Both the position numbers and the translations under genes were made by a program. From positions 544 through 64,543 of the forward strand of contig PKUO01000057.1 in the NCBI GenBank assembly GCA_002869585.1: a stretch of 64,000 nucleotides of DNA, read 5' to 3'. Each line of letters begins with the position of its first letter. Position 1 is the first letter of the stretch. This DNA is from Sedimenticola sp. (GTDB taxonomy: Bacteria; Pseudomonadota; Gammaproteobacteria; Chromatiales; Chromatiaceae). The notes under the pieces are model-generated. The model was not told the DNA's origin and did no database searches. It worked only from the letters and a program-made list of their open reading frames with translations. Below, piece after piece: positions 1,875 through 14,706 of this stretch.

Positions 1875-3230
1875 TTATTGGTGCTCTTTCAGGTTGAAAC
1901 GTTTTATCATTCGATAAACGCTACGCTCGCTGATTTTCATGACATCGGCAACCTGAGAACGTCGGCCGGAGTATTTTTTCAACTGATGCTCTAGATATTG
2001 GGCCGTTATCTCATCCAGACTGGGTTCATGATCAAAGGTGAGATTGAGAACCGTACTCTGAGTCGTGTGTGATGAGCCGAAGGCAAGGTGATTCGGTTCG
2101 ATTTTCCGCTTGTCGCGCGAGAGAATGATGGCTCTTTCAACCACATTCTTAAGTTCACGGATGTTTCCAGGCCAGTCATAGGCGATCAGTTTGCGGATAG
2201 CTGCAGGGGTTAGCTGTTTGTCGATACGTCTTGAGAAACTGTGGTTGTTGATGAAGTGTTCGGCCAGTTCAGGGATATCTACCCGCCGGTTTCTAAGAGG
2301 CGGTACGGTCAGGTCGAATCCATTCAGACGATAGAATAGGTCTGGACGAAAAGCCCCTTCACTGGCCATTTTTTCCAGATTTCGGTTGGTAGCGGCGAGG
2401 ATACGTATGTTGGCGTAGAGATCTTTTGTTCCCCCCAGTCTTCGGAAGATGCCAGTTTCCAGAATACGCAATAGTTTGGCCTGAATTGATGGCTCGATTT
2501 CACCAATTTCGTCGAGAAACAGTGTTCCGCCTTCTGCACCTTCGATTAATCCTTTTTTCTGTCGGTCTGCGCCGGTGAAAGCCCCTTTTTCATGACCGAA
2601 CAGTTCTGACTCAAACAGTTTTTCCTGCAAGGTACAGCAATCAACAGCAACGAAGTTACGTGTCGAGCGTGGGCTGCAATCATGAATGGCACGCGCAACA
2701 AGTTCTTTACCAGTACCGCTTTCTCCCTGGATCAATACAGTGATGTAATCCTGAGCAACAGCTTCGATAAGACGGTGTATCTCTTCTAACGTAGCGCTTT
2801 GTCCGATAAGTGTGCGATCACGATAAATGGTTTGTTTGAGTTGTCTTTTGCAGAATTGATGGTCACTCCGAAGCGCTGCAGTGGATAAGGTTCGTTGTAC
2901 CGTCAATAGTAGTTCATCCAGGCTGACAGGTTTTAATAGATAGTCTTCCGCGCCATTTTTCATGGCATCTACAGCGCTTTTAACTGAGCCGTACGCGGTA
3001 AGAATAATGACTGGATACTCTTCGACGAGTTCCGGTAATTGTGCCAAACTGTCACCATCGGGTAGTCGACCATCCATGATGATGAGTGAGGGCTCATTTT
3101 TTTCTAGATGTTTTTTAGTCTCTCGCCAGCTAACTGCACCGAGTGCACGATATCCGGCACCAATCAGCTGATCAATAATGAGTTTGTTCAGTGTGACATC
3201 GTCTTCGATGACAAGTATTAACTCACTCAT
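1875..3230 (-). CDS. NtrC-family sigma54-dependent response regulator
   Basis: This 451-residue regulator has the full NtrC layout. It starts with a receiver domain (acidic pocket IEDD, phospho-acceptor Asp in IIMDGRLPDG, Lys in YLLKPV). A sigma54-interacting AAA+ domain follows, with Walker A GESGTGKE, the sigma54-contact loop GAFTGA and [12 protein letters not shown] Fis-type helix-turn-helix (RSQVADVMKISERSVYRMIKR) closes the protein. ATG 3230 overlaps the kinase stop as ATGA, so the pair is translationally coupled; the upstream TTG is unlikely. It should be phosphorylated by the adjacent kinase, bind a palindromic enhancer and open sigma54 promoters by ATP hydrolysis. Four 15-bp palindromes and two -24/-12 promoters lie just upstream of the kinase gene and beyond, making the divergent secreted-protein and molybdoenzyme units its likely targets. 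Confidence 0.93.
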   Translation of the reverse strand: MSELILVIEDDVTLNKLIIDQLIGAGYRALGAVSWRETKKHLEKNEPSLIIMDGRLPDGDSLAQLPELVEEYPVIILTAYGSVKSAVDAMKNGAEDYLLKPVSLDELLLTVQRTLSTAALRSDHQFCKRQLKQTIYRDRTLIGQSATLEEIHRLIEAVAQDYITVLIQGESGTGKELVARAIHDCSPRSTRNFVAVDCCTLQEKLFESELFGHEKGAFTGADRQKKGLIEGAEGGTLFLDEIGEIEPSIQAKLLRILETGIFRRLGGTKDLYANIRILAATNRNLEKMASEGAFRPDLFYRLNGFDLTVPPLRNRRVDIPELAEHFINNHSFSRRIDKQLTPAAIRKLIAYDWPGNIRELKNVVERAIILSRDKRKIEPNHLAFGSSHTTQSTVLNLTFDHEPSLDEITAQYLEHQLKKYSGRRSQVADVMKISERSVYRMIKRFNLKEHQ

Positions 3231-5080
3231 GAAATACAACCTGGCGGCTTATCTGGATTAGGCAGTTGGATAGTAAATGTGCTTCCTTCTCCAACCTTAC
3301 TGATTGCTGAGATTTTACCTCCATGGTTCTTGATGATACTGCGTGCAATTGAGAGTCCAAGGCCCGTTCCATTTGAACCATCGGCACGGCGGCTGAAGAA
3401 TGGATCGAAAATACTCTTAAAATCAACTGGATCAATACCCATGCCGTCATCTTGTATATTGATTTGGATGCACTGATCATCACCTGAAGTGCTGATGAGG
3501 AGGTTTCCGCCATGGGGCATGGCGTGGAAGGCATTTTGAATAAGATTAAGTGCCGCCATGCGCAGATCGTTGTCTGTCGCTAACACACGAAGTCCGTTCT
3601 CATAATTCTCGATTATGTTGATGTGGCTATTTTGTGCCTCCCAATGCAACAGGCTGATTGTTTCGTGTATTAGGGGTTCCAACTCGACCAACATCGGAGG
3701 TGCTCCTGGAGGCGCACCAAGCTTCAATAGTCGTTCTGTTACTTCGATGCAGTTGTCTACCTCTTTGTCCAAAATCTCTAGATAGTTGTTGATATCGTTC
3801 GTTGGTGTGGAGATTTTCGCCAGTGCGTTTTGCGATGCATGTAAGGCAATGCGCACTGAAGAGAGGGGGTTGTATATCTCATGAGCGACGCCTGTAGCGA
3901 GACGTCCCAGTTCGGTTAGCTTCTGTTCTTGTGAGTATTTAATTGTTTTTTCAAGATCACGGATTGACTCAACGATTAGCAACTGTTCTTTGCCGTCAGT
4001 GTAGGTAATCAATGGAGCTGCGTATATTTCCACTTCTCTCGGACTGCCGTCGGAATGATAGTGGTGATGTAAAACCTTTAAGGGCTGCCTGTTTTTGACA
4101 ATCTCGTATACCGGACAGGTAATCAATGTCGGCACACAGGGTTCAGTCCGATTATAACTGCATTCATAGCAGTATTTCTGCACGCTAGACTCATCAATAC
4201 AAAACTGTTCCCTGAAGCTGTTATTGACCAACAGAACACGGAAGTCAGTGTCAATAATGCGTACTCCATCCGGAATTGCATCCACCAGCGATTGCAGAAA
4301 TTTCTCTTTTTCGCTCAACTCGCGGATTTTCCCCTGAAGGTTCTCAGCCATACGGTTGAAGGTGTGACCGAGCAGTGTGAGTTCATTTTGTCCCGGAAGG
4401 TTGACTCGCGTATCCAAGTTGCCTTGGCTTAATGCGTTGCTGGCAGTAGATAGGGTGGCGATTGGTTTGAGAACAAAACGGCGTATGAACCACCATCCAC
4501 CAATAATATTGACGACAACAATAAGCGCACCGGAACCCATGAGTACCAGAGTGGTTGCACTGGCCCGTCGACGAAGAGATGCAGCGTCATAGTCAACGTA
4601 GAGAATGCCGTTGATCGGGTTTTTATCTGTAGGACCATGGCATTGAATACAGGGTGACTTGTTACGAACCGGATTGATACTTCGTAACACCTCGACCCCA
4701 TTATGATTAGTAATGAATCCAGTGGTTGCCTCGGGACTCGATGGGTCAAAAGCCAAGTGCTTTCCAAGCAGATCTGATGAATCTGAAAAACGAATCTCCC
4801 CATGCGGATTTGTGATGATAACGTTGACAATATTCTGCTGTTGCCCCAAACCACTGACGATATTACGCAATCCATCAAGATCGCGTTTCAGCATGGCATT
4901 TTCCAGCGAGGTACGTAAAAGTTGGTTGACCTGTGATACAGCCTCTTTTCGTTCCCGACTGATTTCGGTCTCGTACATTGCGAGAAAGATTAGTAAGAAA
5001 ATGACAGTACTCATCAGCAACCCCGCAGCAGTTGCTGCTAAAAAACTGCGGTTTAAGCGCGATGTCATCCACTTGAACAT
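3227..5080 (-). CDS. Membrane sensor histidine kinase with periplasmic heme-c motif
   Basis: This is a 617-residue NtrB/ZraS-type kinase. Its order is: TM1 (about 13-36), periplasmic domain (about 37-175), TM2 (about 177-199), HAMP (about 200-253), PAS (about 262-375), HisKA with His400 in GVAHEIYNPLSS, and HATPase (DDGMGIDP, GTGLGLSIARSI). The periplasmic domain ends in CIQCH (Cys144-His148), a perfect CxxCH covalent heme-c site, suggesting redox, gas or ligand sensing by heme. The PAS domain carries Cys304, Cys307, Cys315 and Cys322, a cysteine set also present in the orphan sigma54 activator at 36274. The gene is first in a two-gene operon with the response regulator. A palindromic activator site lies 86 bp upstream of its ATG, hinting at autoregulation. 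The ligand is unknown. Confidence 0.9.
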   Translation of the reverse strand: MFKWMTSRLNRSFLAATAAGLLMSTVIFLLIFLAMYETEISRERKEAVSQVNQLLRTSLENAMLKRDLDGLRNIVSGLGQQQNIVNVIITNPHGEIRFSDSSDLLGKHLAFDPSSPEATTGFITNHNGVEVLRSINPVRNKSPCIQCHGPTDKNPINGILYVDYDAASLRRRASATTLVLMGSGALIVVVNIIGGWWFIRRFVLKPIATLSTASNALSQGNLDTRVNLPGQNELTLLGHTFNRMAENLQGKIRELSEKEKFLQSLVDAIPDGVRIIDTDFRVLLVNNSFREQFCIDESSVQKYCYECSYNRTEPCVPTLITCPVYEIVKNRQPLKVLHHHYHSDGSPREVEIYAAPLITYTDGKEQLLIVESIRDLEKTIKYSQEQKLTELGRLATGVAHEIYNPLSSVRIALHASQNALAKISTPTNDINNYLEILDKEVDNCIEVTERLLKLGAPPGAPPMLVELEPLIHETISLLHWEAQNSHINIIENYENGLRVLATDNDLRMAALNLIQNAFHAMPHGGNLLISTSGDDQCIQINIQDDGMGIDPVDFKSIFDPFFSRRADGSNGTGLGLSIARSIIKNHGGKISAISKVGEGSTFTIQLPNPDKPPGCIS

Positions 5081-5165
5081 CTGTGAGCCTGTTAATTGTA
5101 TGAAGGATTGGGCTCGAACTTTTAATCTTCTACGAATGATTTTATCGTTATTTACAGAAATTTCC

Positions 5166-5180
5166 CTGACAAATTGTCAG
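5166..5180. promoter_or_regulatory. Enhancer-type activator site 1 (perfect 15-bp palindrome)
   Basis: CTGACAAATTGTCAG: the CTGAC/GTCAG arms are perfect around a 5-bp centre. It is the best of four matching sites that occur only in the two intergenic regions controlled by this cluster. It lies 86 bp upstream of the kinase ATG and about 300 bp upstream of the first sigma54 promoter. Inferred binding site of the adjacent NtrC-type regulator. Confidence 0.7.
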
Positions 5181-5396
5181 ATAGCATATGGCGGTATTCG
5201 GTTTCTGGGTCAACCAGAGAATCAGGTTGAGGGTGAGAATGGGATGATTTGAAAACAGTGTGTCATCATTTGCATTGCTTGTATTCCTCCTTTACTTGTT
5301 CAGTGCAACTGATTGTTCTATCAGTGAAAATATCAAATCTCTACTGATTAATTCTGCGTGTTTTCAGTTGTCTGTAACACTTCTTCTCAGGATAGT

Positions 5397-5411
5397 CTGA
5401 CAAATTGGCAT
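5397..5411. promoter_or_regulatory. Enhancer-type activator site 2
   Basis: CTGACAAATTGGCAT: the left arm and centre are identical to site 1, with two changes in the right arm. It starts 79 bp before the -24 element of the promoter at 5476, a normal distance for a sigma54 upstream activating sequence. Confidence 0.65.
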
Positions 5412-5475
5412 TTATCAAAACAGCTGGTTTATGTGAATGTCAAAATATTTCTTTTAAAACAAGAAGATGATGTAT

Positions 5476-5491
5476 TGGCATCCTCTTTGCT
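5476..5491 (+). promoter_or_regulatory. Sigma54 (-24/-12) promoter for the 254-residue secreted protein
   Basis: TGGCATCCTCTTTGCT matches the sigma54 consensus TGGCAC-N5-TTGC(A/T), with both invariant GG and GC dinucleotides at correct spacing; only the sixth base differs. It lies about 150 bp upstream of the GTG at 5639, leaving an untranslated leader of about 135 nt. Confidence 0.75.
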
Positions 5492-5638
5492 GTTATTGGT
5501 AAATGTTGAGACAACAAGCGCTTTCCAGGGGAGTGACGATTTGGCTGGTGTAGTGGGTGCATGCAGCGCAAGCGTTGAATGGGGTATTTGAGTTTGTGTG
5601 GGTATGGGGTGGTTTAATTTTGGCGGGAGTAATCAAAA

Positions 5639-6403
5639 GTGAATAAAAATGAGATAGTTGGGTGTCATGCTTTTTTTAGACGACTTGGACTGTTAGTCAC
5701 ACTTTTTCCTTTAGTCTGTTTTGGGCAGGTCGATGGCCATTTGGCAGATAGTCTGAAAGAGGCACTGAAAGAGCAGGGTTGGCAGGAATTAGTTGCTGAT
5801 GACGGGAGCGTGATTTTCCATCAAGTAAAAGATAGTGACGTATCTGCTAGCCAACAGGTTTCAGCTGAAACTATCCCTGTGCAGTCACTTGATGAAATGT
5901 TGCAGCAGAGGAATTGGCAAGCGACATGGAAGCCAGATGGCAGCCTGCTTTTGATACCGAGAGTCCCATTAGACGAGCAGACAGTATCATCCCCTGGCAA
6001 TCCACCTGCAACAGATCAGTCTTCATCTGATGTAGCGCCGGATATGGCAGGATTTGAATATTGGCGAATAGAGCGCGGGATGGATGGATCTATGCTATTC
6101 CACACATTGTCAGAAGGGGAAAGGACCAACACGAAAGAAACGGTTGGTTCTCCTATGGGGGCTTGTGATGGCCAGCAGTTTTTTTCGGAAAATGTATTAC
6201 TACCCGTTGATGAATGGTCCGAAGTAAATGTTTTAGCACAGCTATGGATCGAGGCCTCTGGCAGTGAAGGCATTCAAGTAGGCAGAATCCGTAAACTGTT
6301 CCGCGTCTATATCGTCAGTTTGGTTTCCGATCAAGCCCCATTCTCATTGGTGCATCAATTGGCAATCCGTTCATCGGACGGTGGTGTGATTTTTCTCGAA
6401 TAA
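5639..6403 (+). CDS. Secreted protein of unknown function with W-x(6)-DGS repeats
   Basis: This 254-residue protein has an N-terminal signal segment (RLGLLVTLFPLVCFGQ). It then has three spaced copies of a roughly 20-residue motif: GWQELVADDGSVIFHQV, NWQATWKPDGSLLLIPR and YWRIERGMDGSMLFHTL. Each has the form aromatic-W-x(6)-DGS-hydrophobic, as in a beta-hairpin repeat. The remaining C-terminal part is a single uncharacterised domain ending GGVIFLE. I recognise no family. GTG 5639 follows GGCGGGAG, a good ribosome site. The gene is monocistronic: sigma54 promoter in front, strong terminator behind. Shared control with the molybdoenzyme unit suggests a periplasmic accessory or extracellular role. 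The function is unknown. Confidence 0.75.
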   Translation: MNKNEIVGCHAFFRRLGLLVTLFPLVCFGQVDGHLADSLKEALKEQGWQELVADDGSVIFHQVKDSDVSASQQVSAETIPVQSLDEMLQQRNWQATWKPDGSLLLIPRVPLDEQTVSSPGNPPATDQSSSDVAPDMAGFEYWRIERGMDGSMLFHTLSEGERTNTKETVGSPMGACDGQQFFSENVLLPVDEWSEVNVLAQLWIEASGSEGIQVGRIRKLFRVYIVSLVSDQAPFSLVHQLAIRSSDGGVIFLE

Positions 6404-6439
6404 TATGCTCCTTTAAGTAAGCAGCGACTTAATGGGCGT

Positions 6440-6471
6440 AGCGGAATTCGTGATTTGAATTCCGCTTTTTT
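6440..6471 (+). terminator. Rho-independent terminator
   Basis: AGCGGAATTC, a 7-nt loop, then GAATTCCGCT and TTTTTT. It is a perfect 10-bp stem with a U-run, 36 bp after the stop of the 254-residue protein gene, and it separates that gene from the molybdoenzyme unit. Confidence 0.9.
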
Positions 6472-6552
6472 GTAGGCCATATCTAACCCTACAACTCTCC
6501 GTCAATGTCCCCTCAAAAATTTTCATCTGATTATTGCCCATTTTTTACAAGC

Positions 6553-6567
6553 CTGACGGATTGTCAG
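6553..6567. promoter_or_regulatory. Enhancer-type activator site 3
   Basis: CTGACGGATTGTCAG: perfect CTGAC/GTCAG arms with a GGATT centre. It lies 250 bp upstream of the second sigma54 promoter and 147 bp from site 4, so the two control regions each hold a pair of sites. Confidence 0.7.
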
Positions 6568-6699
6568 ATTTTTATTTTCTCGATTCATGGCAATGATAAG
6601 GGGCTGTTCAAACACCATAACTAATTGTAATAAAAGGATAATGCCTTTTATCGTTGATTGGTTTGAATCAGTTGCAATGGCGTGTTGTACAAATATGGC

Positions 6700-6714
6700 C
6701 TGACAAATCGGCAG
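6700..6714. promoter_or_regulatory. Enhancer-type activator site 4
   Basis: CTGACAAATCGGCAG: the left arm is identical and the right arm has one T-to-G change, as in site 2. It starts 103 bp upstream of the -24 element at 6803. The surrounding 6472-6800 stretch is AT-rich and shows no gene. Confidence 0.68.
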
Positions 6715-6802
6715 ATTCTTATTATTAGTGCCCAATTTTTCTTCAGTATTTACAGAAAAAATAACTAACAAAATCAATGGGTAATAAGGTATCCAGCTCC
6801 CC

Positions 6803-6818
6803 TGGCACAACAGTTGCT
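6803..6818 (+). promoter_or_regulatory. Sigma54 (-24/-12) promoter of the molybdoenzyme unit
   Basis: TGGCACAACAGTTGCT is a full match to TGGCAC-N5-TTGC(A/T). It sits 67 bp upstream of the first gene (6870). No other convincing promoter or U-tailed terminator is visible down to 14706, so this probably drives the whole eight-gene unit. Confidence 0.85.
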
Positions 6819-6869
6819 CTGTTAGAGACTGCGTAGGCCCGAATCGAACAATAGAAAGATAAGGAGGGT

Positions 6870-7160
6870 GTGATGCGGGTTATTTCAATTGCCTGGGGAG
6901 GCATGTTGTTGGCAGCAAGTTGCAGTGCATATGCAGAGTACCCTATAGCGGGACTCAATCCTTCCCAAAGACCTGTTGGAGCACCAGTTATTGAGTGGGT
7001 GAACCATGATAACAACTGGTATCAGCACGCCTTGACAGGCGTTCAGCAACCCTATCCTCGCAGCCTCTATTTCCTCGAAAACCAGGGAGATTGGCACATC
7101 CCCTTCAATCAACCCGGAATGCAAGGGCGTTACGACATTCGTGGATGGCACCAGAAATAA
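6870..7160 (+). CDS. Small secreted protein of unknown function
   Basis: This 96-residue protein has a clear signal peptide (MRVISIAWGGMLLAASCSAYA, cut before EYP). The mature part of about 75 residues is rich in Pro, Asn, Trp and Tyr and has no cysteine or heme motif. AAGGAGG lies 7 bp before ATG 6870. As first gene after the sigma54 promoter it should be strongly expressed. It resembles no family I know; a small periplasmic partner of the repeat protein that follows is possible but unproven. Confidence 0.7.
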   Translation: MMRVISIAWGGMLLAASCSAYAEYPIAGLNPSQRPVGAPVIEWVNHDNNWYQHALTGVQQPYPRSLYFLENQGDWHIPFNQPGMQGRYDIRGWHQK

Positions 7161-7284
7161 GTTTCTGGCCCATGCACTCTTTGTTTCATCTGTTTCCCAG
7201 CCTGCTGAACTAAGTCGGCTAAACAAAAGTGCGATCTCCCGTGTGATGAGAGACCGTAATCCAACCTTAATGGAGGAATCCAAA

Positions 7285-8250
7285 ATGAAAAAAATTCGAA
7301 TGCCAAGCCTGAAAGGAATAATCAAAGCGTTGGGTTTTGCAACAGCGCTCGCGGTTACCCCTTTCGCATCAGCCAGCATGTACGGTATGTCTGGTATGGA
7401 TGGTATGAGCGGCATGGGCGGCATGGGCGGCATGTCCGGAATGAATGGCATGTCAGGTATGGGCGGAATGTCTGGAATGAGCGGCATGGGTGGCATGTCC
7501 GGTATGTCAGGCATGGGTGGTATGTCAGGCATGGGCGGCATGTCTGGAATGAGTGGCATGGGTGGCATGTCCGGTTATTTCCAAATCACACCTCAAGGCC
7601 AAATTTTCTTCTATCCAGCTAGTGGAATGTCAGGCATGGGCGGCATGTCTGGTATGTCAGGCATGGGCGGTATGTCCGGAATGTCAGGCATGGGCGGCAT
7701 GTCCGGAATGTCAGGCATGGGCGGCATGTCCGGAATGTCAGGCATGGGCGGTATGAATGGCATGTCTGGCATGTCAGGTCAGTGGGTTTGGATGCCTAGC
7801 GGTATGTCAGGCATGGGTGGTATGTCTGGCATGGGTGGCATGGGCGGTATGTCTGGCATGGGCGGTATGTCTGGTATGGGCGGTATGTCTGGTATGGGCG
7901 GTATGTCTGGCATGGGCGGTATGTCTGGCATGGGTGGTATGTCTGGCATGGGTGGTATGTCTGGCATGGGTGGTATGTCTGGCATGGGTGGTATGTCTGG
8001 CATGGGCGGCATGTCTGGCATGGGTGGCATGGGCGGCATGTCTGGGATGAGTGGCATGGGCGGCATGTCTGGAATGAGTGGCATGGGTGGTATGTCCGGT
8101 TATTTCCAAATCACACCTCAAGGCCAAATTTTCTTCTATCCAGCTAGTGGAATGTCAGGCATGGGCGGAATGTCTGGAATGTCAGGCATGGGTGGTATGT
8201 CTGGAATGTCAGGCATGGGCGGAATGTCTGGAATGTCCGGATGGAAGTAA
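7285..8250 (+). CDS. Secreted Met/Gly-rich tandem-repeat protein
   Basis: This 321-residue protein has a signal peptide (KKIRMPSLKGIIKALGFATA to PFASAS). The mature chain is built almost entirely from the triplet M-(S/G/N/D)-G in 6-residue (MSGMGG) and 9-residue (MSGMSGMGG) periods, making roughly one residue in three methionine. The array is broken by two identical islands of SGYFQITPQGQIFFYPASG (near residues 96 and 271) and one GQWVWMPSG island, so aromatic beta-like inserts alternate with Met-Gly arrays. ATG 7285 follows TGGAGGA; the frame is open upstream to 7141 but that part overlaps the previous gene. Met-rich arrays can bind Cu(I)/Ag(I), and low-complexity secreted proteins can coat mineral or sulfur/selenium particles; both ideas are inference. 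Its position inside a molybdoenzyme operon is very unusual. Confidence 0.88.
   Translation: MKKIRMPSLKGIIKALGFATALAVTPFASASMYGMSGMDGMSGMGGMGGMSGMNGMSGMGGMSGMSGMGGMSGMSGMGGMSGMGGMSGMSGMGGMSGYFQITPQGQIFFYPASGMSGMGGMSGMSGMGGMSGMSGMGGMSGMSGMGGMSGMSGMGGMNGMSGMSGQWVWMPSGMSGMGGMSGMGGMGGMSGMGGMSGMGGMSGMGGMSGMGGMSGMGGMSGMGGMSGMGGMSGMGGMSGMGGMSGMGGMGGMSGMSGMGGMSGMSGMGGMSGYFQITPQGQIFFYPASGMSGMGGMSGMSGMGGMSGMSGMGGMSGMSGWK
7567..7643 (+). repeat. 77-bp exact direct repeat, copy 1
   Basis: From ATGTCCGGTTATTTCC through the YFQITPQGQIFFYP island to GGCATGGGCGG, this is identical to 8092-8168 at 525 bp spacing. Flanks continue with only one mismatch for about 30 bp upstream, pointing to a recent segmental duplication or gene conversion inside the gene. 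Confidence 0.9.
8092..8168 (+). repeat. 77-bp exact direct repeat, copy 2
   Basis: Exact partner of 7567-7643. Recombination between copies would delete or duplicate 525 bp (175 codons, in frame). Confidence 0.9.
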
Positions 8251-8292
8251 TCGCCAGCCGATAGGTTTGCTGTGCTAAGCAGGGATGCATAA

Positions 8293-8310
8293 GGGTGCAT
8301 GGAAGCACCC
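8293..8310 (+). other. Intercistronic hairpin after the repeat-protein gene
   Basis: GGGTGC-ATGGAA-GCACCC followed by TATATA but no U-run. It sits between the Met/Gly-repeat gene and the cytochrome gene. It could stabilise or partly terminate transcripts, giving more structural protein than enzyme. Weak evidence. Confidence 0.4.
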
Positions 8311-8373
8311 TATATACGGGATATTTCCAAAAGATGAAGTGCGATTTGAATCGCGTCGGGCGAGGGTTTACCC

Positions 8374-9171
8374 ATGAAGCTGGAAACACAATTCACATTT
8401 GTCACTCTGCTCTTCTTGGCGATGCTGATGCTAGGTACTGGGTCTTTTGCGGCTGAGGACGTTAAAAGTGATTATGAACGTGCTCGTTGGCATCCTATAC
8501 ACTTTAAACCGGCCATAGATAGCGCAACTGATGAACAGTGTATCAATTGTCATCAGGAAATTCTGAATAGAAAGGTGCGGGAACAGTCGCCCGCTGGGGT
8601 TAAAGCGACAGATGTTTTGGCCTGGTATCAGACATTGACGACTTATGAAGGTGAGCAGGAGACATTTCATCGCCGTCATATAGTCACCCCCCTGGCAAAG
8701 CAACTCATGGATATGAAATGCACGACTTGTCACCAGGGCAATGATCCACGTGAAGAAGCAATAATTCCACCGGATCATGACAACAAGAATTTAACGCTGC
8801 GTAAATCGGTTAATCCTGAGATCTGCTTGATGTGTCATGGCTCCAATCCTTACCAGATGATGGGGTTGCCCAGTCCATGGTCTGAGTCGCGCAGCATGTT
8901 TCAGGAAAATTGTCTCTTATGTCACGTGAGCATTCGTATGACACGTCATCAGGTGAATTTCCTTAAAGCGGGTGCTATTGAAGAAGCTGCTAAAAAGGAT
9001 TCCGATGTCTGCTATGGATGTCATGGTGGACGTCAGTGGTATCGCATTCCCTTCCCATATCCTCGTCATGCCTGGTCAGGAATGGCGAAAGATTTGCCTG
9101 ATTGGGCCAAAGATCGGCCTACAGAATCAGAGCCGAGATTTCAGATTAAAACCCCAAAAGCCGCGAAGTAG
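8374..9171 (+). CDS. Pentaheme periplasmic cytochrome c
   Basis: This 265-residue protein has a signal peptide (FVTLLFLAMLMLGTGSFA). It carries five CxxCH heme sites at Cys56 (CINCH), Cys116 (CTTCH), Cys151 (CLMCH), Cys180 (CLLCH) and Cys213 (CYGCH), plus several spare His suitable as distal ligands. There is no further membrane segment, so it is soluble or peripheral. It directly precedes the molybdoenzyme gene (24 bp gap), and no membrane anchor subunit is encoded. It is therefore the likely electron partner of the oxidoreductase, playing a role like NrfB or other small multiheme shuttles. Which way electrons flow cannot be read from sequence. Confidence 0.9.
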   Translation: MKLETQFTFVTLLFLAMLMLGTGSFAAEDVKSDYERARWHPIHFKPAIDSATDEQCINCHQEILNRKVREQSPAGVKATDVLAWYQTLTTYEGEQETFHRRHIVTPLAKQLMDMKCTTCHQGNDPREEAIIPPDHDNKNLTLRKSVNPEICLMCHGSNPYQMMGLPSPWSESRSMFQENCLLCHVSIRMTRHQVNFLKAGAIEEAAKKDSDVCYGCHGGRQWYRIPFPYPRHAWSGMAKDLPDWAKDRPTESEPRFQIKTPKAAK

Positions 9172-9195
9172 CCTTCTGCTGACGGAGAGGTACGG

Positions 9196-11760
9196 ATGAG
9201 CACCAAGACAACAAATGATGAATTATTGAAGCGTCTAAATGTATCCAGACGCCAATTTCTCAAGACCACCGCACTAGGTGGCGTATCCATGGCCACTGGA
9301 GGTTTGGTTGAGCTGAAGACGGCGAAAGAGGCCAAGGCCTTTGCCTATGAACCATATCCTAAGGACGATGAACTGCAAACCATAGTAACAAGTTGCGCTC
9401 ACAACTGTGGTTCCCGTCATATGCTGGTGGCGCACAAATGGAAGGATGTCATCGTACGCCTCTCGACGGATGATGGTCGCTATCAGCGTGGTGGATATTT
9501 TGGCAAGGATAGCAATGAAGAGCCGCAGCTGAGAGCCTGCTTGCGGGGGCGCTCTTATCGCCAAAGACTCTACTCTGCAGAACGTTTGCTCTATCCGATG
9601 ATAAGAGTAGGTGATCGTGGCGAAGGCAAATTCAAACGTGCAAGCTGGGATGAGGCACTAGATTATGTTGTGAACAAGATGGTCCATATCAAGGAAACCT
9701 ACGGACCGACTGCTCTGCTTGATCAGAGTTATGCCGGTGCCTCTTATGGAGTGTTGCATAAGTCCGATCAAATCGAAGGTTTGCTGGGTCGTTTCCTAGG
9801 GATGTTCGGTAGTCGCACTAGCTCATGGTCGGTTCCGTCCTATCAAGGCACCACATTCAGTTCTCGAATGACCTTCGGCACTATCGAAGATGGCAATGAA
9901 GATGATGCCTTTGCTTATTCCAAGTTGATCATAATGTGGGGCTGGAATCCTGCCTATACCTTCCATGGCGGTAACACCTTCATGTACATGCGCATGGCGA
10001 AACAGCGAGGCTGCAAGTTCGTGCTGATCGATCCCCAATATACCGATTCAGCCTCTGCCTACGATGCTTGGTGGATTCCCATTCGGCCCAATACCGATGC
10101 AGCGATGATGGCTGGAATGGCGCATTACATCTTCACCAACAATCTGCATGATCAGGCGTTCATCGATAAGTTCTGTCAGGGAATGGATGCAGGCACCATG
10201 CCTGAATGGGCCAAGGATAAGGAGAACTTCAAGGATTACATTCTCGGCACATATGACGGTGAGCCAAAAACACCGGAGTGGGCAGAGAAAATCTGCGGTG
10301 TTTCGGCAAAGGACATCATTAAACTTGCCGATATGTATGCCAAAACCAAGCCTGCAGCATTGAAGGCATCCTGGGCGCCAGGGCGTAATGCCTATGGTGA
10401 ACAGTACAACCGTATGGCTGCGGCATTGCAAGCGATGACCGGCAACATCGGCATACTCGGTGGGTGTGCAGAAGGCGTCGGCAAGGCCTGGCATGCGGAG
10501 GCAGTTGCCTATCCCTATGACCAGTATGCAAACATATGGTTTCAGGCGATCAAGTCTGATCGTTGGGCACACTGCGTGCTCAACTATCCCAATGTTCCGC
10601 GCGAAGAGATCGGACTCTGGCCACGTCAGGATGAGTCAGACGGCCAGATTCCCAACATCAAGGGCATATTCTGGCAGGGTTCCGACTGGTTCAATCAGCT
10701 CACCAATATCAACAAAGAGATCGAGGCGATCAATAAACTCGAGCTGGTGGTCTGTATGGATTCCACGATCACTCCCTCCGGTCTTTATGCGGATGTACTT
10801 TTCCCCATTGCGACACACTTTGAACGGCATGATGTCGCTTTGCCCTGGTATAAGGGCCATTACTACATCCATCGTCCAAAGGTCATCGAGCCTATGGGCG
10901 AATCAAAAACCGATCTCCAGGTATTCACTGAACTGGCCTATCGCATCGGTGGCGATGTCTTCGGGGAGGCCTACAACCCGAAAGCGAACCGAGACTACTT
11001 TCATGTCAATGACAATGTTGATGAGGCCTATCTTCGTGACTGGTGGGAGAACAAGGTAATACCTCACCAGCATGTGGATATGTCCTGGGATGAGTTCAAA
11101 CAGCGGGGTGTCTACAAATTCATGTTTGATCAGCCCCACGTCGCGTTTCGTGATCAGATCGAAAATGGTGCACCTTTCCTGACACCGTCTGGGAAGATAG
11201 AGATTCTTTCCTCTCAGTTGGCACAGATCACTGACTGGAAGAAGACCATGTACGGTTACGAGATCCCCTATATTCCCAAGTGGATCGAGCCTTGGGAGTC
11301 GTTGAACAGTCCAAAGACCAAAGACTTTCCTTTTCATCTCATATCGCCTCATCCGCGTTGGCGCACGCATTCCATTTTTAACAACTGCAGTTGGTTGCGT
11401 GAAACCTATGAACAGGAGGTGACCATCAACGCATCAGATGCCAGGAAACTGGGCATCCAGACCGGCGATACGGTGGAAGTCTGGAATGACCGTGGAAAGT
11501 GCGTGGTACCGGCATACGTTACCGAGCGTTGTATGCCGGGTGTCGCGGTACTGCATGAAGGGGCCTGGATCGACTTGGATGAGAACGGTGTTGATCGGGC
11601 CGGTAATCCAGACATGTTGACTTTGGACGAACCCAGTCCGGCTGGGGCGTTTGCCTATAACACAGTGTTATGCGACATAAAGAAAACCGACCTTGAGCAT
11701 CGTCCAGGCTGGGACAAATTGGCCACATCCCGTGCACATGTATTTCGGCGTGATCTTTAA
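9196..11760 (+). CDS. Tat-exported DmsA-like molybdopterin oxidoreductase catalytic subunit
   Basis: This 854-residue protein begins with a twin-arginine signal (VSRRQFLKTTALGG). It aligns along its length with DmsA/YnfE-type bis-MGD enzymes: RACLRGRS, YPMIRVGDRGEGKFKRASWDEA, IDPQYTD, WWIPIRPNTDAAM, TPSGKIEI, and the C-terminal molydopterin-binding domain. The N-terminal Fe-S motif is Cys67-x3-Cys71-x3-His75-x39-Cys115, where DmsA has Cys at the third position. The Mo ligand is probably a Ser near residue 216 (VPSYQG), as in DMSO-reductase-type enzymes. SD GGAGAGG precedes ATG 9196. Candidate substrates include S-, Se- or N-oxides, or oxidation of a reduced sulfur compound; the sequence does not decide. 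DmsA-like membership is firm, function open. Confidence 0.9.
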   Translation: MSTKTTNDELLKRLNVSRRQFLKTTALGGVSMATGGLVELKTAKEAKAFAYEPYPKDDELQTIVTSCAHNCGSRHMLVAHKWKDVIVRLSTDDGRYQRGGYFGKDSNEEPQLRACLRGRSYRQRLYSAERLLYPMIRVGDRGEGKFKRASWDEALDYVVNKMVHIKETYGPTALLDQSYAGASYGVLHKSDQIEGLLGRFLGMFGSRTSSWSVPSYQGTTFSSRMTFGTIEDGNEDDAFAYSKLIIMWGWNPAYTFHGGNTFMYMRMAKQRGCKFVLIDPQYTDSASAYDAWWIPIRPNTDAAMMAGMAHYIFTNNLHDQAFIDKFCQGMDAGTMPEWAKDKENFKDYILGTYDGEPKTPEWAEKICGVSAKDIIKLADMYAKTKPAALKASWAPGRNAYGEQYNRMAAALQAMTGNIGILGGCAEGVGKAWHAEAVAYPYDQYANIWFQAIKSDRWAHCVLNYPNVPREEIGLWPRQDESDGQIPNIKGIFWQGSDWFNQLTNINKEIEAINKLELVVCMDSTITPSGLYADVLFPIATHFERHDVALPWYKGHYYIHRPKVIEPMGESKTDLQVFTELAYRIGGDVFGEAYNPKANRDYFHVNDNVDEAYLRDWWENKVIPHQHVDMSWDEFKQRGVYKFMFDQPHVAFRDQIENGAPFLTPSGKIEILSSQLAQITDWKKTMYGYEIPYIPKWIEPWESLNSPKTKDFPFHLISPHPRWRTHSIFNNCSWLRETYEQEVTINASDARKLGIQTGDTVEVWNDRGKCVVPAYVTERCMPGVAVLHEGAWIDLDENGVDRAGNPDMLTLDEPSPAGAFAYNTVLCDIKKTDLEHRPGWDKLATSRAHVFRRDL

Positions 11761-11777
11761 TCTTGGAGGAGAGTGAA

Positions 11778-12443
11778 ATGGCAGAACCAACAGACAAAGC
11801 CAAGATCAAGGATGCCATCAAGCGCCGTAAACGGGAAACCTACACGCCGATCAAACCTGATCTGCAGCTTGGCTTCGTGCACAATAACGTCGACTGCATC
11901 GGTTGTCGTGCCTGCGAAATGGCATGCAAGGATAAGAATGGATTGCCTCCAGGCCCACGTTTTCGTCGGGTGCAATATATAGAAGGTGGAACCTATCCGG
12001 ATGTGTTTGCCTACAAGGTCAACATGTCATGCAATCATTGCGAATCGCCGGCGTGCCTGCCGACCTGTCCGACAGGGGCAATTTTCAAGCGTAAACTGGA
12101 CGGAATTGTCGATATCGACTCCACGCTGTGCATTGGTTGCCGACGCTGTGAAGCGGCCTGTCCTTTTGGTGCCCCCCAGTTCGATCCATACGACGGTATC
12201 ATGAAGAAATGCAATATGTGTGTGGATGAGATTGAGGCAGGGCGAAAACCCTATTGTGTCATGGCCTGCATGATGCGCGTGCTCGATATCGGGCCGGTGG
12301 AAAAGATTTGGAGCGGTGAGCTGGAAACCGTGGCGGTTGGGCCCAATGATGAAATCTCCAGGCAGGTCAAGAATATGTCCGATATTGAGCTTACCAAACC
12401 TTCCATCGGCTTTGTGGCCCATAGCAAAGGTAAGGTCAAATGA
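11778..12443 (+). CDS. DmsB-like four-cluster Fe-S electron transfer subunit
   Basis: This 221-residue protein has four ferredoxin-type Cys groups in DmsB/NrfC order: CIGCRACEMAC, CNHCESPACLPTC, CIGCRRCEAAC and CNMCVDEI...CVMAC. They relay electrons between the catalytic subunit and an outside partner. It has no signal peptide and should be exported bound to the Tat-targeted catalytic subunit, as in related enzymes. ATG 11778 is preferred over TTG 11763, since GGAGGA at 11765-11770 lies 7 bp before it. The stop overlaps the next gene as ATGA. With no DmsC/NrfD-type subunit, its exit partner is probably the pentaheme or monoheme cytochrome. Confidence 0.92.
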   Translation: MAEPTDKAKIKDAIKRRKRETYTPIKPDLQLGFVHNNVDCIGCRACEMACKDKNGLPPGPRFRRVQYIEGGTYPDVFAYKVNMSCNHCESPACLPTCPTGAIFKRKLDGIVDIDSTLCIGCRRCEAACPFGAPQFDPYDGIMKKCNMCVDEIEAGRKPYCVMACMMRVLDIGPVEKIWSGELETVAVGPNDEISRQVKNMSDIELTKPSIGFVAHSKGKVK

Positions 12444-13216
12444 TTGGGCTCAACACAGAAAAACTGATCGATCGTCTCGACACTCTTCTCAAACCGCTCT
12501 GTGAACTGGTTGCCGAGGATCTGTCACTGCTTGCGCATCTGAATGATAAAGAACCGGATGCGGAATTACTGAATCGCCTACGTGACAATGGGTTTCCTGA
12601 TGGGCTTGGGCTGGTGTTGGTTGGTGATTCGGTGCCGCAGGTAATCGACCTGATCACAGGGTCGCTTGACTCGTTGCCAGAGACAATCGATGAGCATATT
12701 CTTGATGAGTTGGCAGCAGACTATGCCGATATTTACCTGAACTATGGTTTACAGGCCTCTCCTGAAGAGTCGGTGTGGGTCGATGATGAAAATCTCACCT
12801 GTCAGGACAGCATGTTTCAGGTCAGAGTCTGGTATGAGCAGTTAGATCTGATGGCAGAGAATTGGCGTATCAGGCCCGATGATCACCTGGTTTTACAACT
12901 TAAGTTTTTGTCCCATCTGTTCGCAACTGAAGCTAGTGAGTCCCGCTTGCGCCAGGCAGCTCAGTTTATGGATGAGCATCTGCTTCGCTGGTTATTGGAT
13001 TTCTCTCAGCGTGTAGCCAATCGATGTGCAACAGCCTATTTCGCAGGCATTTGTATGCTGACGGCAATCTATTGCGAAGAGTTGCGGGATCTCATTGCCG
13101 AAATTCTTGATGAGCCGAAACCCAGCGTAGAAGAGATTGAAGAACGAATGAAACCCAAACGTCGGACTGAAGAAATACCGGTTAGTTTTATGCCGGGAAT
13201 AGGACCGGCAGTTTAA
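12440..13216 (+). CDS. TorD/DmsD-family molybdoenzyme chaperone
   Basis: This 258-residue, mostly helical, acidic protein has no signal peptide. It carries the family hallmark of an all-alpha fold, with a central LAADYADIYLNYG segment followed by PEESVWVDDENL (TorD-like Y...P.ES) and an RxxDDHLVLQLKFLSHL helix. Members bind the Tat signal peptide of their partner molybdoenzyme and delay export until the Mo cofactor is inserted. The 4-bp overlap with the Fe-S gene indicates coupled translation and a dedicated role for the upstream oxidoreductase. Confidence 0.85.
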   Translation: MIGLNTEKLIDRLDTLLKPLCELVAEDLSLLAHLNDKEPDAELLNRLRDNGFPDGLGLVLVGDSVPQVIDLITGSLDSLPETIDEHILDELAADYADIYLNYGLQASPEESVWVDDENLTCQDSMFQVRVWYEQLDLMAENWRIRPDDHLVLQLKFLSHLFATEASESRLRQAAQFMDEHLLRWLLDFSQRVANRCATAYFAGICMLTAIYCEELRDLIAEILDEPKPSVEEIEERMKPKRRTEEIPVSFMPGIGPAV

Positions 13217-13230
13217 ACCAAGGAGAATAG

Positions 13231-13617
13231 ATGATGAATAGAGTACAACGCGCCGCGGTGGGGCTATCTGCATTAGGATTACTTGCTGTCTTACCCTTAA
13301 CCGTTATGGCCGATGCAGCCGCAGGTAAAGCTGTTTATGATGGTATAGGTGCCTGTGCCGGTTGTCACGGATCCGATGGTAAAGGTGACGGAGCCGCAGC
13401 TGCTGCATTGGACCCTAAACCACGTAATTTTGCTGAAGCGACGTTTGCCTATGATACGGATGGTGATGGCGCAACTGGGACAGATGTGGACCTGTTCAAT
13501 GTGATCAAAAATGGATCTGCTGTATATGGTGGAGCTCCTACCATGCCTGGACGCGCGGATATACCGGATGCCGACATTCAGGCGATGGTTGAATATATAC
13601 GTTCCCTGGCTATGTGA
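13231..13617 (+). CDS. Monoheme class I cytochrome c
   Basis: This 128-residue protein has a signal peptide (AAVGLSALGLLAVLPLTVMA) and one CAGCH heme site (Cys42-His46). The probable axial Met lies in GGAPTMPGR, as in small diheme/monoheme c5/c551-like proteins. AAGGAG precedes ATG 13231; a second ATG directly follows. It is a periplasmic shuttle within the molybdoenzyme unit and could link it to a terminal oxidase or bc1 complex. Confidence 0.9.
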   Translation: MMNRVQRAAVGLSALGLLAVLPLTVMADAAAGKAVYDGIGACAGCHGSDGKGDGAAAAALDPKPRNFAEATFAYDTDGDGATGTDVDLFNVIKNGSAVYGGAPTMPGRADIPDADIQAMVEYIRSLAM

Positions 13618-13623
13618 TCAATC

Positions 13624-14706
13624 GTGATTCGGCGATGGTTGGATTCAGCAATTTCAGAGTTGCGGTTGCCTGAAATTATTGCCGAACGATGTGTGCACGC
13701 GCATGCCGAAGTGGCAAGTTGCCGTGCCTGTTTGGATGCCTGTCCCCATGAAGCCTGGGTTATCGATGATGATGCCTTGGGAATAGACAGCTCTCTATGT
13801 GATGGTTGTGGACTCTGTTCGGCTGCCTGTCCACAGGCAGCCATAGTTTCTGACGGTGAGCCTGCTGTCATGCGCTACAAGGAGAGCATGGTGGCATTGG
13901 CGCGTTGTGAACAGACAAATGGAGAAGTTGAGCAACTGCCTAGCGACCGAAAGATCAGCTGCATCCATTCGCTGGGTTTTCGAGACTTGGCCCGCATGGC
14001 GGCTGAAGATGTTTTTGCACTCTATTTCTACACCGGAGACTGTGATCATTGTCAGCGTGGTGAGGCGCTGAGGCTGGAGCAGCGTTTATTGCAAATCAAC
14101 TACCTGTTAAACGCCTCAGAGCGCCCAGTAGTGTCGCTCTACCGGTTGAATCAGCGGCAGTGGAGCAACCTGTTGAGTAGCTTGCAGTCAGCGGAGCAGG
14201 GTAAGAAATCCACCCGTCGGCTTTTTATGCGTCAGGGGTTGGCGCAAATGGCGACTCAACTGTTGCCTGACTTGCAATTGTCGGATCACGAACGTGGTGC
14301 GATACAGACCCCAACTCAAATACTGTCGATTGACAAGCAGAAGAGCAGGGCACTTCATTCCCCGGCCATTGATTCACGATTATGCGATGGCTGTGATGCC
14401 TGTGTGCGCTTATGTCCGCAGTCGGCCATTCAGCTGATGATCGATGATCAGTTGACTCAATATACAATCAATTCACATGGCTGCACCGGTTGCCGACTTT
14501 GTGTGGATATCTGTGAAAACAGGGCGCTAAGTCTACAGTCTCCCAGCGTCTCAGGTGGAACAACCACCTTGTTGTTATATAGTGCAAGATGCAGAATATG
14601 CGGCGTTCCTTTTCATCGGCCTGCCATTCAGGACGTGGAATCCAACCTCTGCCATGTCTGTCGTAAAGTCAATCATAAACGGAATCTTTTTAAGGTTCTG
14701 CCATAA
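13624..14706 (+). CDS. Multi-cluster ferredoxin-like protein of the molybdoenzyme unit
   Basis: This 360-residue cytoplasmic-looking protein (no signal peptide) starts at GTG 13624, 6 bp after the cytochrome stop. Two N-terminal ferredoxin groups (CRACLDAC; CDGCGLCSAAC) and two C-terminal ones (CDGCDACVRLC; CTGCRLCVDIC) flank a middle domain with ISCIHSLGFRDL and CDHCQRGEALRLEQR. The C-terminus has two CxxC pairs (CRICG, CHVCRK) like a small zinc ribbon. The ends resemble NapF-type ferredoxins; the middle recalls Fe-S assembly-associated ferredoxins found beside other molybdoenzymes. A maturation or cytoplasmic electron-donor role is inferred. It is last in the unit and converges on trpG, and no clear terminator was seen in the 61-bp gap. 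Confidence 0.8.
   Translation: MIRRWLDSAISELRLPEIIAERCVHAHAEVASCRACLDACPHEAWVIDDDALGIDSSLCDGCGLCSAACPQAAIVSDGEPAVMRYKESMVALARCEQTNGEVEQLPSDRKISCIHSLGFRDLARMAAEDVFALYFYTGDCDHCQRGEALRLEQRLLQINYLLNASERPVVSLYRLNQRQWSNLLSSLQSAEQGKKSTRRLFMRQGLAQMATQLLPDLQLSDHERGAIQTPTQILSIDKQKSRALHSPAIDSRLCDGCDACVRLCPQSAIQLMIDDQLTQYTINSHGCTGCRLCVDICENRALSLQSPSVSGGTTTLLLYSARCRICGVPFHRPAIQDVESNLCHVCRKVNHKRNLFKVLP

Follow-up and report, generated by a model that had tools for sequence, protein, structure and literature searches.

A sigma54-linked periplasmic molybdoenzyme cassette and its pairing with a methionine-glycine repeat protein in Sedimenticola and other proteobacteria

Which compound does the periplasmic oxidoreductase system encoded in this stretch of a Sedimenticola sp. 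genome act on, and is it one of the systems that already have a name? The stretch, called the window below, is 64,000 nucleotides long. An initial annotation had placed an undescribed system at 6803-14706, consisting of a sigma54 promoter, a small secreted protein, a Met-Gly repeat protein, a pentaheme cytochrome, a DmsA-like enzyme with its DmsB-like subunit, a TorD chaperone, a monoheme cytochrome and a NapF-like ferredoxin. All of these parts are indeed present. According to the open reading frames and profile scans, the gene-filled span 6870-14706 consists of eight genes and, as had been stated, Pfam and NCBIfam scans find no DmsC or NrfD among them. What we see is a coherent periplasmic oxidoreductase cassette of uncharacterised function, with no DmsC/NrfD anchor encoded in its operon; the unit reaches beyond 6803-14706 to the divergent two-component genes at 1875-5080. 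To the initial annotation we can add this two-component system with its predicted c-heme sensor, the pairing of the Met-Gly protein with the enzyme, and a His ligand in the FS0 motif of the latter.

The eight genes all lie on the forward strand. The first (6873..7160, probably starting at the ATG at 6873) encodes the small secreted protein, with the motif IAGxxPSxRPxGAP...WYTPF...YDIRGWH and 14 invariant columns across 34 aligned rows. Pfam gave no match for the window protein and an E of 0.007 for the best of 32 relatives, and judged by sequence it is a new family; its structure prediction has a mean pLDDT of 63. It is followed by the Met-Gly repeat protein of 321 aa (7285..8250), which most likely starts not at 7141 but at the ATG at 7285, in front of a signal peptide (judged by eye), and by a secreted pentaheme cytochrome c with five CxxCH motifs (8374..9171). 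Then come the Tat-exported DmsA-like bis-MGD catalytic subunit (9196..11760) and a DmsB-like [4Fe-4S] electron transfer subunit (11763..12443; TIGR02951 188 bits, under the cut-off of 214.1). The last three are a TorD/DmsD-like chaperone (12440..13216; Pfam Nitrate_red_del, and 77 bits with the TorD model, under its cut-off of 132), a secreted mono-heme class I cytochrome c (13231..13617; one CxxCH, Pfam Cytochrom_C), whose gene the similarity search misses in some loci, and a multi-[4Fe-4S] ferredoxin, NapF-like and probably cytoplasmic (13624..14706; Pfam Fer4_7, TIGR00402 40 bits, under the cut-off of 102). Upstream, a conserved protein of 254 aa (5639..6403, forward strand) has relatives at the same position in many gammaproteobacterial loci and no match in the Pfam and NCBIfam scans.

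Is the promoter real? The site TGGCACAACAGTTGC at 6803..6817 (forward strand) matches the consensus exactly, and it is the only one to do so among 64 sigma54 matches in the window, a number that does not exceed chance when two mismatches are allowed. While the loose consensus alone is thus at chance level, the site becomes credible because it is conserved across loci: TGGCA[CT]N5TTGC occurs 61-114 bases 5' of the first gene in 25 of 38 distinct cassette upstream regions (partly from close relatives), a looser consensus in 30, and none in the other 8. On both strands of all the loci collected (1.72 Mb) there are just 35 instances of the strict pattern. On account of this conservation we rejected a chance promoter. 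The perfect inverted repeat CTGACN5GTCAG is found twice in the window, both times 5' of the cassette; one of the two, CTGACAAATTGTCAG at 5166..5180, is a probable activator site. We also note CTGACGGATTGTCAG at 6553..6567, about -320 from the first gene, and CTGACAAATCGGCAG with one mismatch at 6700..6714, about -173. Sites like TGACN5GTCA are seen in 24 of the 38 upstream regions, a count made without a chance control.

The putative regulators are encoded on the reverse strand. An NtrC-family sigma54 response regulator with receiver, AAA+ and HTH parts (1875..3239; Pfam Response_reg, Sigma54_activat) has orthologues that adjoin the cassette in many loci. The histidine kinase (3227..5080) consists of a periplasmic single-Cache domain with a CxxCH (C144-H148), HAMP, PAS, HisKA and HATPase. 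The CxxCH is kept in 37 of 39 aligned rows, and Cys 304, 315 and 322 of the PAS domain are invariant in all 39. With its structure model (mean pLDDT 87), Foldseek returned WalK and CitA at the top and the c-heme protein GSU0935 lower down. As in the sCache_heme kinases of the Tll0287/GSU0582 type, the CxxCH sits on a short helix that precedes the final strand of a Cache fold; unlike in those, the PF11845 score (16.4 bits) is below the Pfam cut-off of 24.1. Since a Cache fold together with a conserved CxxCH, found here by alignment, model and Foldseek, characterises sCache_heme sensor kinases, we assign the kinase a predicted c-heme Cache domain.

The initial annotation had been unable to match the combination to a named system, and the phylogeny of the catalytic subunit agrees with this. 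Identity to the window protein is 74-93% within its clade and about 38% or less outside. In a quick tree of every fourth clade sequence, the window, a plasmid copy, 30 homologues and 10 references, which do not extend to Shewanella DmsA, archaeal DmsA and other characterised enzymes, the clade is separate (SH-aLRT 100, stem 1.78) and lies outside E. coli DmsA/YnfE/YnfF and TorA/TorZ/BisC. The tree flags long branches and leaves the exact sister group unsure (row L138 alone, DmsA/YnfE/F), so that we claim only the separateness. For the references included, nesting in a known clade was rejected by both the tree and the curated models: TIGR02166 (DmsA/YnfE) gives 620.4 bits against a cut-off of 777.7 (611.5 for the plasmid relative) and TIGR00509 (DorA/TorA/BisC) 402.9 against 1017.55. 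S-oxide reductases and YnfE/F give the best model scores and are the closest of the characterised enzymes, and the active-site segments are DmsA/BisC-like in an alignment with such enzymes. Ser215, at the Mo-ligand position, and Tyr179 are present in all 92 rows of the alignment of the clade, which holds the window and 91 distinct sequences out of 101 in the clade. By these features the enzyme belongs to the S-oxide reductase branch of the bis-MGD DMSO reductase family, with a predicted activity to match; among the substrates suggested initially (oxyanions, sulfoxides or a reduced sulfur compound), sulfoxides fit best.

In place of the four-Cys FS0 cluster of DmsABC, the clade has C67-x3-C71-x3-H75...C115. 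The His is found by column in 92/92 rows and by motif search in 91, with one row unmatched, whereas the third ligand is a Cys in all 22 DmsA/YnfE/F-type rows caught by the motif search; two further rows of this type, from Rhodovastum and Azospirillum, have the Cys too when aligned with the clade. The same comparison shows E. coli TorA, TorZ and BisC to be without the FS0 cysteines.

With E. coli DmsABC/YnfEFGH, at about 35% identity, the cassette shares the Tat-exported DmsA-type subunit, the DmsB-like Fe-S subunit, the TorD/DmsD-like chaperone and the Ser at the Mo position, but it has the FS0 His, and cytochromes and the Met-Gly protein instead of DmsC. TorCA/TorYZ, DorCA and H. influenzae MtsYZ have single-subunit enzymes and use NapC-type cytochromes as quinol oxidases. 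A multiheme cytochrome c feeding a periplasmic S/N-oxide reductase would be common to them and to the cassette, which adds a B subunit and whose pentaheme cytochrome is secreted and has no NapC-type Pfam match. Shewanella DmsEFABGH likewise lacks DmsC and has a multiheme cytochrome beside DmsA and DmsB; our unit differs in having neither an outer membrane barrel gene nor the decaheme DmsE (five CxxCH; 21 bits with TIGR03508, cut-off 192.2). The type II DMSO reductases (Ddh, Ser, Clr, Ebd, Nar) have an Asp at the Mo ligand. Several of them couple to cytochrome c, which is the point in common, while the cassette enzyme is far under the family cut-off (TIGR03479 231.7 bits, against 984.75), has Ser for Asp and is not accompanied by a heme b subunit gene in the unit.

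A different kind of likeness is seen with perchlorate reducers, where the Met-rich periplasmic peptide MrpX guards the periplasm from a reactive product and forms, together with the Mo-dependent MetO reductase YedY1/MsrP, a renewable oxidant scavenger under the control of an ECF sigma factor. The cassette also has a periplasmic Met-rich protein, and a MetO reductase with Mo is what we propose for it below. It differs in the enzyme family (profile scans find no MsrP (YedY) gene among the cassette genes), in a two-component sigma54 system instead of the ECF sigma factor, and in the greater length of the repeat protein.

From where would the enzyme receive its electrons? In the pentaheme cytochrome, H43, H99, H102, H192 and M163 are conserved in 88/88 rows. 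Of 90 distinct ORFs (distinct as strings, some being from overlapping loci of one genome), 7 join it to a class I cytochrome domain, and the domain is cytochrome c-550-like in the one fusion scanned. This suggests coupling to the cytochrome c pool in place of a DmsC/NrfD anchor. Beside the plasmid copy, DmsC/NrfD is not listed in a gene table that is incomplete.

The Met-Gly protein has 85 Met, 120 Gly, 53 Ser and no Cys in its 321 residues, and the mixed Gly and Ser codons of its gene argue for selection acting on the protein. We searched genomes for its array with the pattern (MxG)6-M. Among 55 related genomes, all 15 carriers of the enzyme (identity at least 78%) have the array, and none of the 40 others does. 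Likewise, in a sample of 398 genomes from the phylum, exactly the 5 carriers had at least 10 matches (10-73), a threshold chosen after the counts were known; of the 393 non-carriers, 7 had 1-3 matches and the remainder none. Sixteen genomes of this sample with DmsA/YnfE-type matches of 34-37% have no array. The Fisher p values of the co-occurrence (1e-11, 8e-14 and 2e-22) ignore relatedness, so that its true weight is less, and one genome (G000) belongs to both samples. The array lies no more than 5 kb from the small gene in 38 of 42 loci (L105 and L157 being one genome), and in three carriers (G014, G016, G021) it is elsewhere in the genome, outside the stretch around the enzyme. Given this regular co-occurrence, the Met-Gly protein is probably a partner or substrate of the enzyme. 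Among the titles and abstract openings listed by searches of the open-licence PMC literature, none reports such a pairing.

The draft genomes are less clear. Among 29 named draft carriers, drawn from 80 named loci and mostly those with the upstream part missing or odd, 5 have no array and 3 a single match, which is no more than some non-carriers have. Many of the array-poor drafts are fragmented MAGs; L094, on the other hand, has no array although its small and pentaheme genes are adjacent. Arrays outside the cassette were seen in G003, G014, G030 and G226 (by eye from ORF starts, unannotated), and those of L180 and L186 resemble cassette contig ends, with kinase-like ORFs adjacent. For the other arrays of this kind we looked by eye for a common neighbour and saw none. 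Sulfur-globule envelope protein and copper binder are possible other roles for the Met-Gly protein, but neither accounts for its link to a single molybdoenzyme.

Our leading proposal, which is tentative and may well be wrong, is a sigma54-controlled periplasmic Mo S-oxide reductase paired with a secreted methionine polymer, MetO on the Met-Gly protein being its main substrate. The c-heme Cache sensor kinase, probably responding to NO or redox state, would activate the response regulator, which in turn would start transcription of the operon at the sigma54 promoter. Maturation of the Tat-exported DmsA/DmsB-like pair may be aided by TorD and the ferredoxin. Electrons would pass from the cytochrome c pool, rather than from quinol via DmsC, to the mono-heme cytochrome, the pentaheme cytochrome, the Fe-S subunit and finally the Mo site. 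The methionines would absorb oxidants and the enzyme would turn the resulting MetO back into methionine, so that the polymer could buffer oxidants, or serve as an electron sink, again and again. It is doubtful whether one can go as far as a respiratory-type molybdoenzyme with a self-made secreted protein as dedicated substrate, that is, an oxidant sponge or electron sink with up to some 80 sites per molecule, recharged from the cytochrome c pool under a c-heme NO/redox sensor.

There are several points against the proposal. Met-rich proteins bind Cu(I) as well, some drafts are array-less, a high-potential cytochrome c suits oxidation equally, and an antioxidant need makes no obvious call for sigma54 control. 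A precedent for the activity is DorA, which according to an excerpt of PMC7402097 reduces protein-bound MetO; the sulfoxide motif given there for DorA is SYGW, and the window enzyme has SYAG instead (178-181), which would speak against the proposal. The related H. influenzae MtsZ reduces MetSO and could not repair oxidised calmodulin, as an excerpt of PMC5122715 has it, so that protein MetO reduction is not automatic.

Could the enzyme simply serve to respire DMSO, or a different small sulfoxide, when oxygen is low, with the Met-Gly protein as an auxiliary (antioxidant, scaffold or metal binder) and not the substrate? We consider this somewhat unlikely. The characterised DmsA-type enzymes, to which models and tree relate it, do reduce DMSO. 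Excerpts on lucinid symbionts show that their authors propose DMSO as acceptor at low oxygen and that, in Table 1, the upwelling season brings higher transcript levels of dmsB and dmsD. DMSO respiration by itself, however, leaves the presence of both array and enzyme in 15/15 and 5/5 carriers unexplained, and there is no DmsC/NrfD and no DmsE-type cytochrome, with TIGR02166 below its cut-off.

It is unlikely that the system is a dehydrogenase which oxidises a reduced sulfur compound, such as a thioether, in the periplasm, with the pentaheme and mono-heme cytochromes handing the electrons on to a terminal oxidase. By its TIGR03479 score our enzyme is far from the type II family, to which the known DMS dehydrogenase belongs, and the Ser at the Mo position and the DmsA/BisC-like active-site segments are typical of reductases. 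The fusion to a cytochrome c-550-like domain would nevertheless suit an oxidation, and the carriers are mostly SoxB-positive: among 50 of the 80 named loci, picked to thin out Thiodiazotropha, 41 have soxB above the curated cut-off, 4 more a weaker match and 5 none, as compared with 60 of 398 in the phylum sample (one of whose five carriers, G168, has no SoxB match). In the lucinid symbionts, according to the excerpts, aprAB (sulfur oxidation) are also high during the upwelling season, as are dmsB and dmsD.

We think it very unlikely that the enzyme reduces an oxyanion (selenate, tellurate, chlorate or iodate) and that the Met-Gly protein, like MrpX in perchlorate reducers, shields the periplasm from a reactive product: the nearest characterised relatives do include YnfE/YnfF, whose annotation in E. 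coli is putative selenate reductase, but the 16 phylum-sample genomes with DmsA/YnfE-type matches have no array, and no chlorite dismutase or oxyanion gene is among the annotated genes of the window (about the first 23 kb).

Is the system undescribed, as the initial annotation had it? Its function is uncharacterised, but the enzyme itself has very probably been noticed already: we believe it to be the highly expressed 'DMSO reductase' of the lucinid symbiont Ca. Thiodiazotropha in print, because the genome of Ca. Thiodiazotropha endoloripes has a single match above 30% identity to the window enzyme, and this match is inside the clade. In that symbiont, an excerpt reports, a DMSO-reductase-like gene is among the highest expressed in five transcriptomes and six proteomes, and part of a review calls the substrate of the symbiont 'DMSO reductase' not verified. 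Here the pairing with a methionine polymer offers a concrete candidate; if that candidate is right, labelling the cassette genes dmsAB may credit their carriers with a DMSO reduction that they do not perform. The enzyme of PMC8269255 is of the psr/phs type in the excerpt concerned, and hence not that of the cassette. The carriers are many bacteria, largely sulfur oxidisers, from the alpha-, beta- and gammaproteobacteria; they include the named strains Thiofilum flexile DSM 14609 and Thermopetrobacter sp. TC1, and in Rhodobacter xanthinilyticus the cassette is on a conjugative plasmid.

The unit at 6803-14706 of the window contains the parts that the initial annotation had listed. A perfect sigma54 site stands at its head, and the genes for a small secreted protein, a Met-Gly repeat protein, a pentaheme cytochrome, DmsA-like and DmsB-like subunits, a TorD-like chaperone, a mono-heme cytochrome and a multi-cluster ferredoxin are all present. 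The reported lack of a DmsC/NrfD anchor also holds, with no match among the genes of the unit. The divergent genes upstream (1875-5080) encode a sigma54 response regulator and a histidine kinase. We count these as part of the system because many loci have them alongside the cassette, on its upstream side and divergent in gamma- and betaproteobacteria, downstream in alphaproteobacteria. A 254-aa protein of no known family (5639-6403, +) keeps its position in many gammaproteobacterial cassettes.

The stretch 1875-14706 has a G+C content of 48.4%, versus 57.3% downstream; it is bordered on the left by transposase-like ORFs (IS110-type, 45-656; HTH_Tnp_1-type, 834-1181) and on the right by trpG/trpE-like genes. 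It therefore looks acquired in this genome and, with the neighbouring transposase ORFs, is probably the edge of an acquired island. In tubeworm symbionts, a second tandem pentaheme-catalytic-FeS set lies behind the first cassette (L040, 16808-20926; L069, 16912-21052), its catalytic subunit being 74% identical.

The proposed phylogeny of the catalytic subunit (9196-11760, +) was run with a quick tree method, using as references E. coli DmsA, YnfE, YnfF, TorA, TorZ, BisC, FdnG and NarG, two plasmid-borne DmsA and 30 further homologues. Against these, the enzyme forms a separate clade (SH-aLRT 100, stem 1.78, 24 clade rows), and it scores below the curated cut-off of every Mo-enzyme family that it matches. 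The Fe-S cluster motif FS0 reads C-x3-C-x3-H...C in 92/92 clade rows, whereas the third ligand is Cys in all 22 DmsA/YnfE/F-type rows matched by the motif search. Ser215 aligns with the Mo-ligand Ser, Tyr179 is invariant, and where DorA has SYGW this enzyme has SYAG. Outside the clade, the closest relative that turned up is a 737-aa DmsA-like protein (L155, 6113-8326; genome G190), 45% identical over part of its length, in which the third FS0 ligand is Cys.

Scanning named bacterial and archaeal genomes yielded 140 relatives. The best 80 of these are 77-93% identical; many, judged by name, are sulfur oxidisers or their symbionts (Ca. Thiodiazotropha, Sedimenticola, Thiobacillus, Thiothrix, Thiofilum flexile), and others are MAGs under broad or different labels (Gammaproteobacteria, Hyphomicrobiaceae, Accumulibacter, Geminicoccaceae and more). 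In the phylum sample, 5 of 398 genomes, the window's own included, carry the enzyme at an identity of at least 78%; the next matches reach at most 37% over most of the length, apart from one partial 45% match (38% over its length). SoxB exceeds its curated cut-off in 41 of the 50 carriers examined versus 60 of the 398 phylum genomes, as raw counts that ignore kinship. Cassette and two-component genes also occur on a conjugative plasmid of Rhodobacter xanthinilyticus. A 90% identical cassette on a contig labelled Clostridia bacterium (L045) is most likely a wrongly assigned MAG contig.

The Met-Gly protein (7285-8250, +) has 321 residues, 85 of them Met and none Cys, and its repeats are coded by mixed synonymous codons. 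We searched for its array as a DNA pattern of six consecutive M-x-G steps plus Met. Among 55 related genomes, the array is found in 15/15 enzyme carriers and 0/40 others. The phylum sample of 398 gave 10 to 73 matches in the five carriers, 1 to 3 in seven non-carriers and none in the remaining genomes. In three genomes (G014, G016, G021) the array is not in the enzyme's own stretch, so the pairing is more than linkage. Counting against the pairing, the pattern is absent from 5 of 29 named draft carriers and occurs just once in 3 more; of those lacking it, L095 has a Met-rich ORF that the pattern missed. In L094 the genes that flank the array elsewhere adjoin directly, with no Met-Gly gene between them. 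Arrays stand at contig ends in L180, L185 and L186; assemblers therefore probably split or lose the gene, and annotation will miss it. In one genome an array protein is on a different contig from the cassette (L183, 6473-7576): 367 aa, with a signal-like start and a long Gly-rich repeat before the array.

The pairing is explained most economically by taking the Met-Gly protein as the enzyme's substrate, a reading we put forward tentatively and at less than even confidence. Its methionines would take up oxidants and become sulfoxides, which the enzyme would reduce, the chemistry of this enzyme branch. DorA is known to reduce protein-bound MetO (PMC7402097); speaking against a protein target, MtsZ failed to repair oxidised calmodulin (PMC5122715). 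Respiration of a small sulfoxide ranks next and seems to us doubtful.

Of 90 distinct pentaheme ORFs, 80 encode five CxxCH motifs, 7 encode six and 3 encode fewer. Four His and one Met that lie outside these motifs are conserved without exception in 88 rows and, from the alignment, are candidate distal heme ligands. In the seven six-heme cases a class I cytochrome is fused at the N-terminus; in the plasmid copy this domain matches Pfam Cytochrom_C above cut-off, and its best NCBIfam match is Bradyrhizobium cytochrome c-550 (64 bits, under the cut-off of 240). The fusion suggests that the partner is the cytochrome c pool. Either direction of electron flow fits such a partner. In many cassette loci, similarity gave no counterpart of the window's stand-alone mono-heme gene. 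Among the further readings, an oxidative role is unlikely, and reduction of an oxyanion is improbable.

The Ca. Thiodiazotropha endoloripes genome (G449) has a single match that exceeds 30% identity with the enzyme of the window, within the clade, so the highly expressed 'DMSO reductase'-like gene reported there is, by similarity, almost surely this enzyme. A 2021 review calls its substrate unverified (PMC8090883). In lucinid symbionts, a 2024 paper notes genes called dmsAB that lie upstream of soxY-S1c and of dsrAB (PMC11237559). The genes that a 2025 paper gives as higher in upwelling include dmsB and dmsD (Table 1, PMC12172469). The cited portions of this literature make no mention of a Met-rich partner.

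A strict sigma54 site is present in 25 of 38 cassette upstream regions, and in 30 with a looser consensus; 8 have none. TGACN5GTCA-like repeats occur in 24/38, typically near -170 and -330. In the window, the repeat CTGACN5GTCAG is perfect at 5166 and 6553 and has one mismatch at 6700; matches of this type number 5 versus 1.9 expected, and 3 of 100 shuffles gave as many. The periplasmic domain of the kinase has a Cache fold in the predicted structure (mean pLDDT 87), with CxxCH in 37/39 rows, and is a probable covalent-heme sensor. A 2026 preprint describes such sCache_heme domains and says that signal-fused members have NO-sensor properties (PMC12889525); NO or redox is therefore, by inference, the likely cue. 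In the kinase of the window (3227-5080, -), the CxxCH lies at 144-148 in the Cache domain, and three cysteines that are invariant in a PAS domain may provide a further redox or metal site.
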